In this document: piece by piece, positions 22,014-31,188 of the stretch
Numbering within the stretch: position 1 is the first letter of the stretch
Layout of the letters: every line of letters begins with the position of its first letter
NCBI GenBank assembly: GCA_020696395.1
Contig: JAEHCN010000004.1
Span: 1 to 43,577 of the forward strand
Direction: 5' to 3'
DNA length: 43,577 nucleotides
Source: Thermoplasmata archaeon
GTDB lineage: Archaea > Thermoplasmatota > Thermoplasmata > UBA10834
Notes under the pieces: generated by a model
What the model was told of the DNA's origin: nothing
Database searches by the model: none
The model's input: only the letters and a program-made list of their open reading frames with translations
Made by a program: the position numbers and the translations under genes

Positions 22014-24008
22014 GTGATTGGAGCAGTGGCTCAAACCAAGGGCAGAAACGGGTTGAGGACAGCGAGTCTTCTTGCTTCAGCCATTCTGCTTACTGGTTTT
22101 GCCGCAGGCGCTTTCTTCGGGTTGAATTCAGTGGGCCCTTCCCCAGACGAAGAACTCCGCTGCGGCACCATGGCTGCGAGCATTCTGAGCTTCACCGCCA
22201 GCCCGAACAGGGTGTACGTGGGGGAGGAGGTCACCTTCACCGCCACTGCAACCAGCACAAGCAGTGCAAGCCTCACTTTCACCATATACTACGACGCGAT
22301 CTTGCCGCCATACCCGGAAAACAACACACAAAGCCCCTACTCCGAACACATGACTGACAGCCCGGGTACGGTGACGACGACTTTCACTTATGAGCAACTT
22401 GGAAATTTGACGCTTGGCACCGATACATTCTACGTTGTGCGGCTCGTTGTCAGTGACGGTTCTGCCACTACCGCAACGGAACTACTGAGCGTCTACGTGA
22501 TAGAGAATAGGGCTCCCACATTTGATGAGTCGCTCATGGCAGAGCTGCCAGATTTGAATCCTGGAGAAGAAGCGAACCTGTCTATCACTGTCTCCGATCC
22601 CGATGGCGACCCCTTAGTTGTGACTTGGGATTTCGGAGATGGATCGGTTGTTGTCGACACGATTGGACCTGCACTGTCTGGAGTCTACGTCAATCAGACC
22701 TACGCATGGTATCCCGTAACCGGTCCCGGCATAGGGGGTGACATGTTCTTTTCGCTTGTTATCACCCTGGAAGATCCTTACGCAAATTCGAGAACGGCAA
22801 CCAGTCTAGTTACCGTTGTGTTGCCTCCAAACGGAACTCCTTCTACCAGACTTGCAGCTTCGGAAACACTGATTGACCCGACGGAAGAGGTGTCTTTCTA
22901 CGCTAACGCAACCGATCCTGAGGGGGAGGCGTTGACGTGGACATTCGTGTTCAACAATGGCGTCGAGGATGTTCATGTGGTGGTCCATAACACGGATGTC
23001 ACTATACCTGGCGCGAAGATATGGAACAACATCACGTACACTTTCGAATCACCCGCAAACTACACTGTGCGGCTCTATGTCTGTGACGGGTTGGTACCAT
23101 ACCAGAACTTGGCTCACAACGTGACCAAGGAGGTCTCGGTCACAGTGGTCGGTAACTCGCTCCCATCGATTGTTGATGAGATTGTCATGTCCGAAGAGAG
23201 CCCGCAAATCAACGTCACTGTTGGTTATGTCCAAGTAACGTTCACGATAAAGACGTATGATGCCGATGGAGAAGTCATCACCGCGACTTGGAATCTCGAC
23301 GACGGAGAGGGTTCCAAGGTGAATGCCTCTGCCGGAGGACTGGCCATATACACCTTCAGGCAGGAGAGATACTTCGACCAGACTGGCGTATACAACGTTT
23401 CAGTCGTCATCTCCGATGACATTCTCGGACATGAAGTTGTGAGATACAGGGAATTCACCGTTACCTCCGACAATCTGCCGCCCAGCGTCGTCAGTTTCAA
23501 CTTCACATATGATGCTGGCAATTACGCAGCTCCAGGAGAGAAGATCGAGTTCTCCATCAAGTTGTTGGATCCGGAGATGGACGTTATCGAGATAACGTGG
23601 GATTTTGGTGATAACAGCTCCATCCTTAGCTTCAACCTGACAGAATATGTGGATGGAAACGTCACTTGCGTCGTTAATCACTCGTACTCGGAAGTAGGGA
23701 TGTATAACGTAACGATAAGGTATTCAGACAATGAGATATTTGGCATTCTCACGCACGAACGGATCAAAACGGCAGAAGTGATCGTCGACACGCCGTTCGA
23801 TAGGGTTGCCGATCCATGGAGCTGGTGGGATTACACCGCTCTGATCTTTGTTCTGATGATTCCAGTCGCGCTGGCACTGAATCTAGTTCGAACAAGACAG
23901 CGACGGAAACGGCTCGAGGCGCAGGGCATTTCTCTTGAAGAGCTGGAGCTCAGAGAGAGCATCCTGTTGGATGAGCCTGACGACTATTCTGAGGAGGAGG
24001 TGGACTGA
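22014..24008 (+). CDS. Membrane-anchored surface protein with about five PKD-like repeats
   Basis: GTG start, signal/TM N-terminus, repeats with 'DPDGDPLVVTWDFGDGS' and 'ITWDFGDNSS', many N-glycosylation sequons, C-terminal TM plus basic/acidic tail. Confidence 0.85.
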   Translation: MIGAVAQTKGRNGLRTASLLASAILLTGFAAGAFFGLNSVGPSPDEELRCGTMAASILSFTASPNRVYVGEEVTFTATATSTSSASLTFTIYYDAILPPYPENNTQSPYSEHMTDSPGTVTTTFTYEQLGNLTLGTDTFYVVRLVVSDGSATTATELLSVYVIENRAPTFDESLMAELPDLNPGEEANLSITVSDPDGDPLVVTWDFGDGSVVVDTIGPALSGVYVNQTYAWYPVTGPGIGGDMFFSLVITLEDPYANSRTATSLVTVVLPPNGTPSTRLAASETLIDPTEEVSFYANATDPEGEALTWTFVFNNGVEDVHVVVHNTDVTIPGAKIWNNITYTFESPANYTVRLYVCDGLVPYQNLAHNVTKEVSVTVVGNSLPSIVDEIVMSEESPQINVTVGYVQVTFTIKTYDADGEVITATWNLDDGEGSKVNASAGGLAIYTFRQERYFDQTGVYNVSVVISDDILGHEVVRYREFTVTSDNLPPSVVSFNFTYDAGNYAAPGEKIEFSIKLLDPEMDVIEITWDFGDNSSILSFNLTEYVDGNVTCVVNHSYSEVGMYNVTIRYSDNEIFGILTHERIKTAEVIVDTPFDRVADPWSWWDYTALIFVLMIPVALALNLVRTRQRRKRLEAQGISLEELELRESILLDEPDDYSEEEVD

Positions 24009-25027
24009 CGACGAGGAAGCGATCCTTCAGAGGAATTATTGCGCGCCGAATCGTCAACGTCGTCATCACGATATTCGGCGTGATGGCCCTCAACTTCTTC
24101 CTTATCCATATGATGCCGGGCGAACCGGTACTTAACATGGTTCCGCGTGATCCGAAATTCGACGAATCGCTCAGGTTTGAGCTGATGGAGAAATTCCATC
24201 TTAATGAGAGTATTCCTGAGAAGTTCGTGATTTACCTCTACAACACGATCACGCTTGATTGGGGCACTTCGTACATGGCAAATGCGCGCCCTGTGGTGGA
24301 TATAATTGCCAATGATATGCGATGGACTTTATTGCTAGTTGGGGCTTCGACAATCTTCACGATTCTCATTGGGATGGCTATAGGCGCGTATGCCGCGTTC
24401 AGGCGAGGAGGGGCGTTCGATCTCGGCTCCAGCGCCTTGTCCCTCTTCTTCTACGGAATGCCAGTCTTCTGGTTCGCAATGATACTGCAGCTATTATTCA
24501 ATTCACACCCCCTCGGGCTCAATTGGTGGCCTCAGTTCCCTCTTGCTGGATACTACGACACAGATGCTTTCGGATCAGAGTTCAGATGGACTCTTCCGAT
24601 AATGCTTAGCGTTGCAGAATACCTGATCGTGCCGTCGTTAACTCTCGCCCTTGCTACAGTCGCCGGCATATCGCTCGTTATGCGGAGTGCCCTTATCGAC
24701 GTGTTCACCGAGGATTATATCCTAACCGCAAAAGCGAAGGGATGCAGTGATTACGTCGTGCTTAGAAAGCATGCCCTTCCTAATGGATTGCCACCGATGA
24801 TCGCCTTGATTGCCATGTATATCGCGTTCATAATCGGAGGTGCCTATCAGGTAGAGGTCATATTCAATTACCAGGGGATTGGCTGGCGGACGATCAAGGC
24901 TATTGAAGAGCTGGATTTCCCCATTCTGCAGTTCATCATCGTGATTGGTGGCGTCGCAGTTGTCATTGCGAACTTCCTCGCTGACCTCCTGCTATTGTAC
25001 ATTGACCCGAGGATCAAGATCTCATAG
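24005..25027 (+). CDS. Peptide/nickel-type ABC transporter permease (DppB-like)
   Basis: 'IARRIVNVVITIFGVMALNFFLIHMMPGEP', EAA loop 'EDYILTAKAKGCSDYVVLRKHALPNGLPPMI'. The ORF track begins at ATG 24080, but the conserved N-terminus reads in frame back to CTG 24005. Confidence 0.88.
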   Translation: MTTRKRSFRGIIARRIVNVVITIFGVMALNFFLIHMMPGEPVLNMVPRDPKFDESLRFELMEKFHLNESIPEKFVIYLYNTITLDWGTSYMANARPVVDIIANDMRWTLLLVGASTIFTILIGMAIGAYAAFRRGGAFDLGSSALSLFFYGMPVFWFAMILQLLFNSHPLGLNWWPQFPLAGYYDTDAFGSEFRWTLPIMLSVAEYLIVPSLTLALATVAGISLVMRSALIDVFTEDYILTAKAKGCSDYVVLRKHALPNGLPPMIALIAMYIAFIIGGAYQVEVIFNYQGIGWRTIKAIEELDFPILQFIIVIGGVAVVIANFLADLLLLYIDPRIKIS

Positions 25028-25037
25028 GGATGGTAAG

Positions 25038-26630
25038 ATGTCTGCTAAGCTTGATTCGATGGGCAAACCTGCCAAGATGCCGTTCCTGAATGAGATTCGG
25101 ATCGAGAAGCTCCGTCTGACTACTGAACGGGCTTTGGATGTCGCCACGCAGATTCTTAGAAACCCGATGGGAGTGGTGGGCGTAGGAATACTTGTAGTCT
25201 TTCTAATACTTGCTGCGTTTGGTCCGGAAATTGCCCCATACGACACAAGCAACCTCGACGAGGGTAAATGGTCGTTGCCATCGGACTTCGCCACTGATGC
25301 CCCATTATCCGCGGAGTTCATATCTCTGATTCTGCTGCCACTTGTGAGCATTGTGGCTTCGGCGGTTGCGCTGATAGCTGCGTTCATAAGGAATCCCGAA
25401 TGGAAGCTGAATAAAACACTTCAGGTCGCGGCGTTAGTTGCATCGTCAGCTCTTATGGGCGTGCTAACGTTCGCATACCTGTCGTTGGTCTACTCCGGTG
25501 AGGAATATGGTTTCTGGGGTAGAATAACAACAGAGTGGAGTAACTGGCTCTATCCTGCATCGGTAGTGGGCGCATGCCTTATTATGCTCTCATATGGCAC
25601 GAGGCGGCGGGTCAGCAGGAAGAGGAGTGTTAGAAGGTGGTTCGGGATCGGGTGCGCTGTCGCTCCCTTGGTTATCATGTCCATATTTATTGTTGTCAAT
25701 CCTCCCCAGGAGCACGCGGGATATGCCCTTCTTACAGGGTATGTGATATGTGGGCTCTTCCTCTTGATCAGTGGCATGAGTTTCCATAGCGCTTATGTCC
25801 GACCAGCTACAGTGGTCACCAGACCTGAGAAGAGAGGCGTCAGATTCCCGACGAGAATCGCTCCCTTGGCCAGAGGCACGGCGATTCTGCTGGCTTCGGT
25901 TTTGATTATCACAGGCGTTTCCGTGTATCTGGTGGAGAACTGGACGACTCACTGGATGGGGACGGATTCTTTCGAGGCAGACATCTTCAGCAAGCTTCTG
26001 TACGGAGCACGAACATCCATAATTGTCGGCGTGTTCTCTGCAATCATCGCGTCTGTCCTCGGAGCGGTGGTCGGTCTGTACTCGGGCTATGCTGGTGGAC
26101 GTATCGATGAGGTTTTGATGCGTGCGAATGACGTCATCCTGTCTATCCCATGGTTAGTCCTGATGATCGTCATCGTTGCAATGATCGGAAAGATCGATCT
26201 CCTTGGGATCATTCTGATCATAGGATTCACGGGATGGTCCCCAACTGCAAGGATGGTTAGAGCGCAGGTGCTTTCCATCAAGGAGCGTCAGTACATTGAG
26301 CGCGCTCGAGCGATTGGAGCCTCGGACTTTGGAATCATTCGCCGGCACGTGCTGCCGAACTCGTTTCCACTCGTATTTGCGAACACGATTCTAACGGTCG
26401 CTTATGCCATTCTCGCAGAGGCTACTCTGGGTTTCTTCGGAATGAGGCCAGTCGGAGTCGTCACTTGGGGAACGATGCTATCATACGCCTCAGATGCAGG
26501 CGCATTCACTATAGGCCTGCACTGGTGGATAATTGCGCCCGGGCTTTGCATAGTATTCGTTGTGCTCGGATTCACTCTCCTAGGATATGCTCTTGACGAT
26601 ATTCTGAACCCGAAGCTGAGAAAGCGCTGA
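25038..26630 (+). CDS. Peptide/nickel-type ABC transporter permease (DppC-like) with a large extra-TM insertion
   Basis: 'NPMGVVGVGILVVFLILAAFGPEIAPYD' at the N-terminus, 'MGTDSFEADIFSKLLYGARTSIIVG' and EAA loop 'RQYIERARAIGASDFGIIRRHVLPNSFPLVF'; about 230 residues separate the first two. Confidence 0.88.
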   Translation: MSAKLDSMGKPAKMPFLNEIRIEKLRLTTERALDVATQILRNPMGVVGVGILVVFLILAAFGPEIAPYDTSNLDEGKWSLPSDFATDAPLSAEFISLILLPLVSIVASAVALIAAFIRNPEWKLNKTLQVAALVASSALMGVLTFAYLSLVYSGEEYGFWGRITTEWSNWLYPASVVGACLIMLSYGTRRRVSRKRSVRRWFGIGCAVAPLVIMSIFIVVNPPQEHAGYALLTGYVICGLFLLISGMSFHSAYVRPATVVTRPEKRGVRFPTRIAPLARGTAILLASVLIITGVSVYLVENWTTHWMGTDSFEADIFSKLLYGARTSIIVGVFSAIIASVLGAVVGLYSGYAGGRIDEVLMRANDVILSIPWLVLMIVIVAMIGKIDLLGIILIIGFTGWSPTARMVRAQVLSIKERQYIERARAIGASDFGIIRRHVLPNSFPLVFANTILTVAYAILAEATLGFFGMRPVGVVTWGTMLSYASDAGAFTIGLHWWIIAPGLCIVFVVLGFTLLGYALDDILNPKLRKR

Positions 26631-26913
26631 AGCAAGATCCCGACGAGTCAATCGGGCAGTTCTGTCAGAATCTCATCGCACGGTCGTTGTTCAGCGTCGG
26701 AAGGCTGGGTGTTGACGGTCGTACCCGTCTCGAAGCGAGAAGTTGTCGTTATGGTTGTGTGAAACCGCATCGGTCGCCGCTCGATCGTGTCGCCAATTCA
26801 GAGCTACGGTCTCGTTTCTACATCCGGAAGCGGTAGAAGCATGCGAAGAAGGTCTCCTCTACAACAGCATTCCCAGCTGCGCTGCATTTGCGCGGCTCAG
26901 ATGGCGTAAAATG

Positions 26914-26922
26914 CTTTATATC
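26914..26922 (+). promoter_or_regulatory. Putative TATA box (CTTTATATC) upstream of the SBP-PKD gene
   Basis: TATA-like element in the about 450-bp gap after the DppC-like gene. Confidence 0.5.
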
Positions 26923-27081
26923 ATTGAATGATTAGCACCTGTACCGGATTCAATGTCCGTACTGACCACGGAGGTAGAGAGCCATACTCGAGTCCGAATG
27001 GGCCGGTCTTGTGTCAGGCGCCGGCAAGTGGAAGGACTTTGTACTGTTTGGTTGGTGGCGAATGAAGGGGGAAGGAGACAG

Positions 27082-30000
27082 ATGGAGAATGGTGATATTG
27101 TTCGTGTTTCGAGAACCACGATGATTGCTGCGGTGTTTCTTGCGGTCCTGATGCTTGGTCTGCCGTCATTTGCAGAGAACGGCATCAGCCCTGTGGGAAA
27201 GGCGGCGGCCCTGCCTGATGTGGATCGGTTGTATAAGATCGGCACCTTGGATCTAGCCATCGCGACACTGAACCTGTTCGAGTATACGATGGTCGACGAG
27301 TCAATGTGCATCTGGCCGTGTATGAGCACGATGCTCACGTATGATCTGGACATGGAGATCACGGGCGACTTAGCCAAGTCATGGGACGTATCCGACGATG
27401 GTCTGACGTGGACCTTTGAGATCGTTGACAACGCTTACTTCTGTGACCCAGACGACCCGGAAACAAGGGATGAAGATCGCAAGCTGACGGTGGATGACGT
27501 AATTTTCACGTATAATGTGATACAGGACTACAAGAGCAATCTGCATTATTTCCCCGGTCCGGTTGATGGGCCTGATGTGCCTCCAACGATTGCGTCGATG
27601 ACCCCTGATGGTGACTATAAGCTGACGATTCAGCTTGACCATCCGTACGCTCCGTTTCTCGGCGCAATAACTTCCCTACCGATATTGCCGAGGTATTACT
27701 GGGAGCCTCAGGGCGGTGGAGACCCGACGAACCTCGCGAATGCACTACCTATTGGCTCTGGACCTTTCTATTACGGTCTTGACGGGCTCCCCGAGGCGGG
27801 AGAGGCTGTGTTGAAGAGGAATCCGATATGGTTCCAGGAGGAGAACAGAGGATGGCAGATCCATGTCGACACTCTGAAGTTCGTCTCGACTACGCATTCG
27901 GAAACCGGCTGGCTAATGCTCAAGGAAGGCGAGATTGACTGCCTGTTAGGAGTGACTCCGTCACAGTATATCGTGGATCTTCCTGGTGAGTCTAACCTCG
28001 AAGGCTTCGCGCAGAGCACAGGCTTCGTGTACGAGATAAGTCTAAACCAGCTCACTGTGGAAATGAGGGAAGACCTGGGCTTGACATCTGGCCCTGGTGC
28101 CTATAACAGTCAGATACTGCTGGATCCAGTCTTCAAGAAGGCCTTTGCGAGATGCATCGACAGGGACCAGTTCGTGGTGGATGTGTTAGAGGGCCTCGGA
28201 TCATACGCCGACTCGCTGATTCCTGAAGTGAATCCATGGTACCACAGATACGACGGCCCTGAGTTGGTATCGTTCGATCCCGACCTTGCAAGGCTTGAAT
28301 TGGAGGAGGCCGGATGGAAATATGACGCTGCGGGCAGGGACGTATCGGGGACAGATCAGTGTCCTCTGTACGACGACGAGGGCGTGCCTCTGGAATTCAG
28401 GTTCTTCACGCTGAGTACGACACAGGAATGGATTATGGCAGCTACCTTGATTGACGACTGGTGCAGCCTGGCCGGCATCCAGCTCAATACGGAATTGCTG
28501 AGCGTGAACCAGATGAACAATGTCTGGTACACGGGAGCTTACGATATCTGGCTGTGGGACTGGATATTCTCACCGCTGTCGGACCCGTCCACTGATATCC
28601 TTTCGGTCCTCACAACAATGGAGATTGGCACATGGAGTGGCGAGTACATGTCTATACCTGAGTATGATGCCCTCTACAACGAGTCTCTTGCCCTCATGGA
28701 CCCTGTTGCCAGACAGGTGATCGTGGACGAGATGCAGAACCTCGCCTACGAGGATTTCTGCTGTCAGTGCGTCGCGTACAGGAAGGATCTCTATGGAGTC
28801 AACTTCGGCGTATGGGAGGACTACGGCGACTGGGAAACCAATTTCATGCTGATGCCTGATCAGAGTTTCCCGTATGTGTTTATGATGATGTCGCCTAGCG
28901 GCCCTGATGCAGCGGACCCACCGAACCCTGCTCCTACGATAACTGGCGTTGATCCGTTGATCGAAGGGCTGGTGGACACCCCCATATCCTTCACCGGAAA
29001 CGCAAACGATGAATCGACTCTGGCCTACAAGTGGTTCTGGGGCGATGACAGCAGCACGGATTGGACGGCCTCTCCCGATGCCATGCACACCTACGCGGAG
29101 GACGGATACTATGACGTGTACTTCGCTGCTAAGGAGGTCAGCGAGGAAGACACTGCGGACTTCTTCATCTCGTGGACGAACACCACGGTGAAGGTTATCG
29201 ACAACAGCAACACGGCTCCGCATAGTCTGGAGATTTCGATCTCGCTCCCCACCCCGGATATTGGCGACGTCGTGACCTTCACGGGTAGCGCTATCGACGA
29301 TGACGGCGACGACCTCTCCTTTTCTTGGTCCTTCGGCGATCTGTACTCCGCAAAGGGGATGGAGGTGACACACCAGTACACGAAGACTGGTTCGTACACT
29401 GTTACGATGTACGTGACAGACAACCGCGTTGGAGAGCAGGACAGGCCCGTGAGCACGAACGAATTGATCGTCGTTTCCGGCAACGTCCCGCCGACAGTAG
29501 ACGTTCCGGACTTCGCAGACGTTATAAGAGACGAATCGTATGATTTTTCGGTCACCCTGTCGGATGGCGATGGCGATCCGTTGACTCTGACATGGGATTG
29601 GGGTGATGGTACGGAGACTGTAACGTCGGCGGACACTGCGTCTCATGCGTACTCAGCTCTGGGCGAACATACACTGACTGTCTATGTAGATGATGGAACC
29701 GACTTGGACGGACACAACGTCTCCGATACCGGATTGGTGACTGTCACTTCGCCAGACAATTCTGCGCCAGAAATCGTATCGCTGGTCCCAAGCAATTCGG
29801 ATCCATATACGGGCGAGGAGATTATGTTCACTGGCACCGCAAGCGATAGTGACGGTGACGCTCTGCGGTTCACATTCGCCTTTGGCGACGGTGCATATGC
29901 GGTACTCGATAACCCGGCAACTGACCCCGACACCACGGTCGAGTTCACCGTGGTACACACGTATGAATCGGCTGAGACACTCTCTGCCTACCTGTACGTT

Positions 30001-31041
30001 ACGGACTACCAGGACAACAGCAGTTCAAGCCCAGAGTCGATCACGGTGATCGCGAATGCTGCACCACTTCTTGGCGAGCTTGCCGACGTGAATGTGCTCA
30101 TCGACGATGAAGTGACGTTCACAACCTCCCCGTTCGATCCAGATGGTGACGAGATGTCTATCTGGTGGGATTTCGGCGACGGGTCTGACATGGCTGAGGG
30201 CGCCTCGGTGATGCACTCTTACGATGCCGTTGGTGAATATGTCTACCGCGTCTACGTCAATGACAGCCACGGCCATAACGAGACCACGGCCGCGATTGTC
30301 AATGTGTTAGACCCGAGCACGAATCTGCCACCCGAGATCATCGCACTTGAGGACAGGACTGAACTGGTCCACGCTCAAATCACATTCAATGTGACGGCGA
30401 GCGACCCGAACGACGACGTACTGACATACACCTGGGATTTCGGCGATGACAGCGCCCTCAAGGTTGGCGAAACCGTTCAGCACACGTACACATCTACGGG
30501 AAACTTCACCTTCGTCGTTCATGTTGGCGATGGTGAATTCAACGAGACCTCGTCGGCGACAATCACTGTCAACGCTAGCGAGCCGCCGGTGGCGGACGCG
30601 GGGGTCAACCAGACCGTGGCAGTCGACGAGGACGTGACCTTCGACGGTTCTGGGTCGAGCGACGATGTCGGCGTCGTGAACTACACTTGGAAGGTTACCT
30701 ACAGCGGCAGTACCGTGACGCTGTACGGGATGAACCCAGAGTTCACGTTCGAGGCGGCGGGGGAGTACAATGTGACCCTCACAGTGAAGGACGCCGAAGA
30801 CCAGAGCGCGACGGCCAGCGTGATGATCACGGTCGAGGGGGATGAGAAGACGTTCCTCGAGTCTTACGGCCTGCCTCTCGGCATACTGCTCGCAGTGGTT
30901 ATCGTGGCGCTTGTGGCGGTCTTCGCCATGAAGGGCAAAAAGGGCGGAAAGGCGCCCTCCTCAGCAGAGATCGAGGGGCGGCCTTCGGGCGAGTCGGGGC
31001 TTGAGGATCCCGGACCGCCCACTGACGAGCAGCCACAGTAG
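27082..31041 (+). CDS. Family-5 extracellular solute-binding protein fused to about seven PKD-like domains and a C-terminal TM anchor
   Basis: SBP segment 'GDLAKSWDVSDDGLTWTFEIVDNAYF...LTVDDVIFTYNVI'; PKD repeats with 'LTLTWDWGDGTETV', 'MSIWWDFGDGSDM', 'LTYTWDFGDDSAL'; C-terminal TM 'GLPLGILLAVVIVALVAVFAMKGKKGG'. ATG at 27082 has an SD (ggaaggagacag); the ORF track starts at 26953. Confidence 0.9.
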   Translation: MENGDIVRVSRTTMIAAVFLAVLMLGLPSFAENGISPVGKAAALPDVDRLYKIGTLDLAIATLNLFEYTMVDESMCIWPCMSTMLTYDLDMEITGDLAKSWDVSDDGLTWTFEIVDNAYFCDPDDPETRDEDRKLTVDDVIFTYNVIQDYKSNLHYFPGPVDGPDVPPTIASMTPDGDYKLTIQLDHPYAPFLGAITSLPILPRYYWEPQGGGDPTNLANALPIGSGPFYYGLDGLPEAGEAVLKRNPIWFQEENRGWQIHVDTLKFVSTTHSETGWLMLKEGEIDCLLGVTPSQYIVDLPGESNLEGFAQSTGFVYEISLNQLTVEMREDLGLTSGPGAYNSQILLDPVFKKAFARCIDRDQFVVDVLEGLGSYADSLIPEVNPWYHRYDGPELVSFDPDLARLELEEAGWKYDAAGRDVSGTDQCPLYDDEGVPLEFRFFTLSTTQEWIMAATLIDDWCSLAGIQLNTELLSVNQMNNVWYTGAYDIWLWDWIFSPLSDPSTDILSVLTTMEIGTWSGEYMSIPEYDALYNESLALMDPVARQVIVDEMQNLAYEDFCCQCVAYRKDLYGVNFGVWEDYGDWETNFMLMPDQSFPYVFMMMSPSGPDAADPPNPAPTITGVDPLIEGLVDTPISFTGNANDESTLAYKWFWGDDSSTDWTASPDAMHTYAEDGYYDVYFAAKEVSEEDTADFFISWTNTTVKVIDNSNTAPHSLEISISLPTPDIGDVVTFTGSAIDDDGDDLSFSWSFGDLYSAKGMEVTHQYTKTGSYTVTMYVTDNRVGEQDRPVSTNELIVVSGNVPPTVDVPDFADVIRDESYDFSVTLSDGDGDPLTLTWDWGDGTETVTSADTASHAYSALGEHTLTVYVDDGTDLDGHNVSDTGLVTVTSPDNSAPEIVSLVPSNSDPYTGEEIMFTGTASDSDGDALRFTFAFGDGAYAVLDNPATDPDTTVEFTVVHTYESAETLSAYLYVTDYQDNSSSSPESITVIANAAPLLGELADVNVLIDDEVTFTTSPFDPDGDEMSIWWDFGDGSDMAEGASVMHSYDAVGEYVYRVYVNDSHGHNETTAAIVNVLDPSTNLPPEIIALEDRTELVHAQITFNVTASDPNDDVLTYTWDFGDDSALKVGETVQHTYTSTGNFTFVVHVGDGEFNETSSATITVNASEPPVADAGVNQTVAVDEDVTFDGSGSSDDVGVVNYTWKVTYSGSTVTLYGMNPEFTFEAAGEYNVTLTVKDAEDQSATASVMITVEGDEKTFLESYGLPLGILLAVVIVALVAVFAMKGKKGGKAPSSAEIEGRPSGESGLEDPGPPTDEQPQ

Positions 31042-31091: not shown

Positions 31092-31113
31092 CTCTTCTTT
31101 CTTTGGAGAAGAG
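31092..31113. terminator. Stem-loop CTCTTCT-N8-AGAAGAG between the SBP-PKD gene and tRNA-Glu 3' ends
   Basis: Perfect 7-bp inverted repeat directly adjoining the tRNA 3' end in a convergent intergenic region. Confidence 0.4.
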
Positions 31114-31188
31114 TGCTCCCGCCGGGATTCGAACCCGGGTGTCCAGCTCGAAAGGCTGGAATGATTGACCGGACTACACTACGGGAGC
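31114..31188 (-). tRNA. tRNA-Glu (TTC)
   Basis: Reverse complement GCTCCCGTAGTGTAGTCCGGTCAATCATTCCAGCCTTTCGAGCTGGACACCCGGGTTCGAATCCCGGCGGGAGCA folds as a cloverleaf; anticodon loop CTTTCGA; no encoded CCA. Confidence 0.95.

Follow-up and report, generated by a model that had tools for sequence, protein, structure and literature searches.

We analysed a stretch of 43,577 nucleotides (the window), which is the whole of contig C6 (43.6 kb) of a Thermoplasmata archaeon genome (G000, 130 contigs, 86% complete). Between positions 22014 and 31041, the forward strand encodes a PKD membrane protein (PKDmem), a DppB-like permease, a DppC-like permease and a substrate-binding protein (SBP) of the SBP_bac_5 family (Table 1). 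The open reading frames and their Pfam domains agreed with an earlier note on this DNA, which had listed the same gene set on this strand. Five PKD repeats had been counted there in the first protein; Pfam matched PKD with E=4e-29 and four stretches over the threshold, and five beta-sandwich domains were seen structurally in the AlphaFold model. The SBP had been described as carrying about seven PKD repeats and a C-terminal TM, and seven PKD stretches and a C-terminal hydrophobic helix were indeed observed. The DppC-like permease (530 aa, starting at an ATG) matched BPD_transp_1 (E=7.5e-31) and OppC_N in Pfam, and extra TM segments are inserted after OppC_N. Downstream, the tRNA-Glu and the ACT gene named in the note are both present, the tRNA lying on the reverse strand; the ACT gene, which comes after it, carries a DUF7523 domain (Pfam). 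A DUF835 gene precedes PKDmem, and the eIF2-alpha, Pus10 and RIO genes mark the DNA as archaeal.

Table 1. Features of the locus, in positions of the window
Feature	Position	Strand	Evidence or remark
PKDmem (PKD membrane protein)	22014..24008	+	Pfam PKD/PKD_4, AlphaFold, alignments
Five PKD-like beta-sandwich domains of PKDmem	about 22176-23786	+	AlphaFold; preceded by a signal/TM segment
PKDmem TM helix	23823-23924	+	AlphaFold, alignments; preceded by a conserved W-x-WWDY
PKDmem short cytosolic helix, RRR..E.G.[ST].EE motif	23934-23969	+	AlphaFold, alignments
DppB-like permease	24005..25027	+	BPD_transp_1 E=7e-37; listed ORF start GTG 24080
DppC-like permease: OppC_N, insert and canonical core	25038..26630	+	BPD_transp_1, OppC_N
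DppC insert with predicted TM helices	about 25260-25937	+	after OppC_N
DppC coupling (EAA) segment MVRAQVLSIKERQYIERARAIGASDFGIIRRHVLPN	26253..26360	+	comparison of permease classes
dppC-SBP spacer	26631..27081	+	alignment of four relatives, sequence
SBP_bac_5 protein, whole gene	27082..31041	+	Pfam
SBP_bac_5 part	27082-28920	+	Pfam E=1.4e-46
Seven PKD domains of the SBP	28921 on	+	Pfam; 7 PKD stretches
SBP C-terminal TM (hydrophobic helix)	about 30871-30927	+	predicted
tRNA-Glu	31113-31188	-	

The GTG listed as the start of DppB is probably internal to the gene; comparison of the PKDmem-dppB junction across loci favours the CTG at 24005, which overlaps the PKDmem stop codon (CTGA). The gap of about 450 bp between dppC and the SBP gene gave no Rfam match, and an alignment of four relatives revealed a conserved TATA-like box near 26918 (about 26913-26922). 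An RBS-like AAGGAG stands just before the SBP start. Given this box and the AAGGAG, the SBP gene may have a separate promoter of its own.

The earlier note had seen no local ATPase, and a search of the whole contig likewise found no ABC ATPase domain. The order PKD protein-dppB-dppC-SBP was found, wherever the flank is on the contig, at 17 further loci from three genera of one Thermoplasmata family (uncultured sediment archaea) and at a paralogous locus on contig C35 of G000, and no local ATPase was found at any of the 17 loci or at C35. This recurrence indicates that the locus is neither a chance arrangement nor a local oddity. DppB is 62-91% identical to 15 relatives and paralogues, and the DppB relatives traced at the 17 loci are 63-91% identical. 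The locus has decayed in two genomes: the orthologous SBP of G006 (L102 11001-12785) lacks the PKD tail and the C-terminal TM, and at the orthologous locus of G005 (L069) DppC is truncated and the SBP is absent. PKD domains were also found on the SBP tails of several G000 paralogues and at the N-terminus of DppC in several relatives and in the C114 paralogue; the tail of the C5 SBP (L029 9454-13890) consists of Big_1, Big_7 and macroglobulin-like domains instead. Among the DppC architectures compared (L110, L107, L109, L104, L111, L035 and the window), the additions vary on a constant core, being one or more N-terminal PKD domains, a TM-rich insert, a long insert, a long TM N-terminus or none at all. 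AlphaFold gave a poor model of DppC (mean pLDDT 49), which was excluded from interpretation.

The model of PKDmem (mean pLDDT 79.8) contains five beta-sandwich domains at residues 55-591 and one TM helix at residues 604-637. In the loci compared, the gene immediately precedes dppB, and the stop codon of the one and the start codon of the other often overlap or nearly touch. A search of 12 genomes for full-length homologues placed PKDmem next to dppB at every examined locus with a true homologue; two G008 matches lie at contig edges, so adjacency was not judged there. A PKD protein on contig C65 of G015 was considered as an unlinked homologue and rejected, as it is a distant, different protein without the WWDY end. 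A structure search with PKDmem returned generic multi-Ig strings only, with TM-scores near 0.2, and its sequence profile matched only the PKD domains of collagenases and proteases, so that no function could be drawn from the profile. The earlier note had named a PKD protein unlinked in every relative as an outcome that would count against its reading; the synteny across relatives shows instead that the linkage to dppB is kept. We infer that PKDmem is probably a linked accessory subunit of the importer, with a putative role only. The PKD domains shared by PKDmem, the SBP tails and DppC suggest extracellular contacts between the components. The surface-scaffolded machine proposed in the note is thus supported in part, by this linkage and by the PKD domains on the SBP and some DppC proteins. 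For the PKD stalks the note had conjectured that they might span the S-layer or bind polymer.

We then compared permeases with ATPases at the genome scale. G000 encodes seven Dpp-type permease pairs and eight SBP_bac_5 proteins, against no more than five oligo_HPY ATPase genes. Two of these genes form a pair next to the permeases of C5, the only local DppDF pair; one lies at the edge of contig C124 (4.9 kb); and two form a pair on C72, where no permease is close by. The orphan DppD/DppF genes that the earlier note had suggested looking for are therefore present in G000, and they were found in relatives as well. In the single-contig G006, nine complete permease pairs coexist with two DppDF pairs, one of which is beside its own permeases while the other is 88 kb from any permease pair, and for eight of the nine permease pairs the nearest DppDF is 88 kb to 1.2 Mb away. 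Similarly, six of the eight permease pairs of G002 are without local DppDF and two have it, and a third DppDF pair is lone. Further DppDF genes could be missing from G000, given its completeness and contig number; this is less likely in the single-contig relatives (G002, G005 and G006), which are metagenome-assembled like the others and are rated 65-90% complete.

The lone pair occupies one conserved site across the family, in the order MFS, RNase Z, dppD, dppF, S58 peptidase and M20-type (ArgE/DapE) deacylase, and these neighbours are in part kept in a second family of the order. Nearly every family member with this locus recovered has an intact pair. Where inspected, Walker A, signature and Walker B are intact in both lone ATPases, as is the H-loop of DppD; both carry the oligo_HPY domain, and in NCBIfam they match the OppD/DppD/DppF models best. 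The lone DppF of G006 (L084 9977-12121) bears a repeat-bearing insert of about 350 residues between Walker A and the Q-loop region, and that of G000 has a shorter one. Proteins of about 1300 aa with a DUF835-like segment are encoded near the lone dppDF locus (L084, L085, L086, L087 and L088).

Standard gene order is found outside the family. Permeases of the same kind still have dppD and dppF beside them, in the usual arrangement, in f23, another family of the class (for example at L257-L261), and in soil Thermoplasmata (L113, L114 and L117; genes of the GC-rich soil loci were located by tblastn), and in two of the f23 loci (L260 and L261) a PKDmem with the WWDY-TM end precedes dppBCDF. In trees built by quick searches with SH-aLRT support only, the DppC clade of the window (PKDmem) is sister to two soil loci that keep dppDF (support 99), the orphan DppD clade (98) adjoins the DppD of those same soil loci, and in either tree the C5 and C124 types stand apart, in clades of their own. 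The coupling segments of all ATPase-less DppC proteins are of one ERA[RK]x[IV]G type, which is common to the soil (sister-lineage) permeases, in contrast to VDAAxxAG in C5 and VEASRALG in C124; this similarity largely tracks phylogeny and is not independent proof of pairing. The earlier note had also counted against its reading an outcome in which relatives carry the standard dppBCDF order and this locus is a local rearrangement. The first half holds, as the standard order does occur in the sister family f23, but the arrangement of the locus is then a lineage-wide derived state and not a local rearrangement. The simplest history would be that local dppDF was lost from all these permeases and that one pair was retained, working in trans. 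Tandem dppD-dppF duplicates follow a standard SBP-dppBCDF cluster at L252 and L113, and such a spare copy could be the origin of the lone shared pair.

We consider it likely that the locus encodes a type I ABC importer of the Dpp/Opp class which has lost its dedicated ATPases, the lone C72 DppDF, shared with the other ATPase-less permease pairs, probably powering it in trans. The suggestion of the earlier note that the ATPases are encoded elsewhere or shared is well supported, by the conserved lone DppDF, by the several permease pairs without any ATPase and by the agreement of the DppC and DppD trees. We infer the pairing of the window permeases with the lone DppDF from sequence comparison. 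In the proposed mechanism, the SBP, fixed to the outside of the cell through its PKD stalk and C-terminal TM, would hand substrate to DppBC, the C72 DppD-DppF would energise the C6 permeases as well as the other ATPase-less pairs of G000, and the TM and cytosolic helix of PKDmem would sit with the permease while its five-domain ectodomain helps to hold or guide the SBP. The SBP family and the peptidase neighbours of the lone pair point to a peptide as the cargo; the permeases and ATPases score below all NCBIfam equivalog cut-offs, with no named substrate such as dipeptide, oligopeptide or nickel. We put forward, more tentatively and as a rather doubtful extension, that PKDmem may be a true extra subunit of the Dpp class, whose WWDY-TM helix packs on DppB/DppC, whose cytosolic helix helps to recruit the shared DppDF and whose ectodomain docks the PKD-stalked SBP, so that modular importers compete for one ATPase pair.

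Both G000 and most relatives examined possess the C5-type DppDF, which could energise some of the pairs. That it powers the window locus, leaving the lone pair to do something else, seems unlikely to us, since C5 DppD and DppC group in paired clades of their own, a long way from the ATPase-less ones, the C5 coupling segment is unlike that of the ATPase-less permeases, and a lone pair with intact motifs would then be partnerless. It is also very unlikely that the ATPase-less loci are no longer transporters and that DppBC and the PKD proteins merely sense, or anchor at the surface, without hydrolysing ATP. The missing local ATPase, the unusual ectodomain load, the variable DppC additions and the decay of the locus in G005 would all suit such a role, but conservation is strong in both the coupling segments and the permease cores, which is expected only with a bound ATPase, and nearly all family members whose lone-pair locus was recovered retain an intact lone DppDF.

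We give hardly any credence to an assembly or binning artefact, by which ATPases next to the permeases would have been lost from fragmented genomes. G000 is indeed in 130 contigs, and its C35, C102 and C124 loci end at contig edges; however, the window locus is internal to its 43.6-kb contig, the junctions are conserved in many assemblies, and the same pattern in the single-contig G002, G005 and G006 contradicts an artefact.

If one DppD/DppF pair serves six or more archaeal peptide importers, the shared-ATPase principle would reach the Dpp/Opp class and the archaea as well, and this would account for annotation pipelines treating such transporters as incomplete. With its peptidase neighbours, the lone pair offers a direct target for knock-out or reconstitution, and the sister family, having kept the ancestral order, provides a natural before/after comparison. 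Should its physical association with the importer hold true, PKDmem would represent a novel type of accessory protein for importers. A literature search, with most subscription papers outside its reach, found no description of a shared DppD/DppF, a PKD-bearing SBP or a PKDmem family, which leaves their absence from the literature unproven.

The system resembles DppABCDF/OppABCDF in its SBP_bac_5 protein, in its two BPD_transp_1 permeases with OppC_N and coupling segments (solved structures related to DppC are 8z1v, 8z21, 8j5q and 8wd9) and in the two oligo_HPY ATPases with intact motifs that exist in the genome. It differs in that the window operon is without oligo_HPY ATPases, the nearest candidate being the lone C72 pair, and in having a PKDmem linked to dppB, an SBP with seven PKD domains and, in the window and relatives, DppC with TM or PKD additions. 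The multitask ATPases MsmX/MsmK serve bacterial sugar importers (PMC7658222), and here, too, several ATPase-less permease pairs and ATPase genes without permeases of their own occur in one genome. However, MsmX/MsmK form a MalK-type homodimer, whereas the pair described here would be an archaeal DppD+DppF heterodimer of the Dpp/Opp class and not of the MalK/CUT1 type. In the lactococcal oppDFBCA-pepO operon, peptide-importer ATPase genes lie beside a cytosolic peptidase gene (PMC3138775); the lone ATPase genes similarly adjoin peptidase genes, but the S58 and M20-type genes have only dppD-dppF next to them, without permeases. Ca. Angelarchaeales, which are related Thermoplasmata, are reported to average more amino acid/peptide transport systems than any other group in the phylum (PMC9038741); neither PKD nor ABC is mentioned in the main text of that paper. 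The soil loci, which, to judge from sample names, are probably from Ca. Angelarchaeales, differ from the window locus in that they keep local dppDF.
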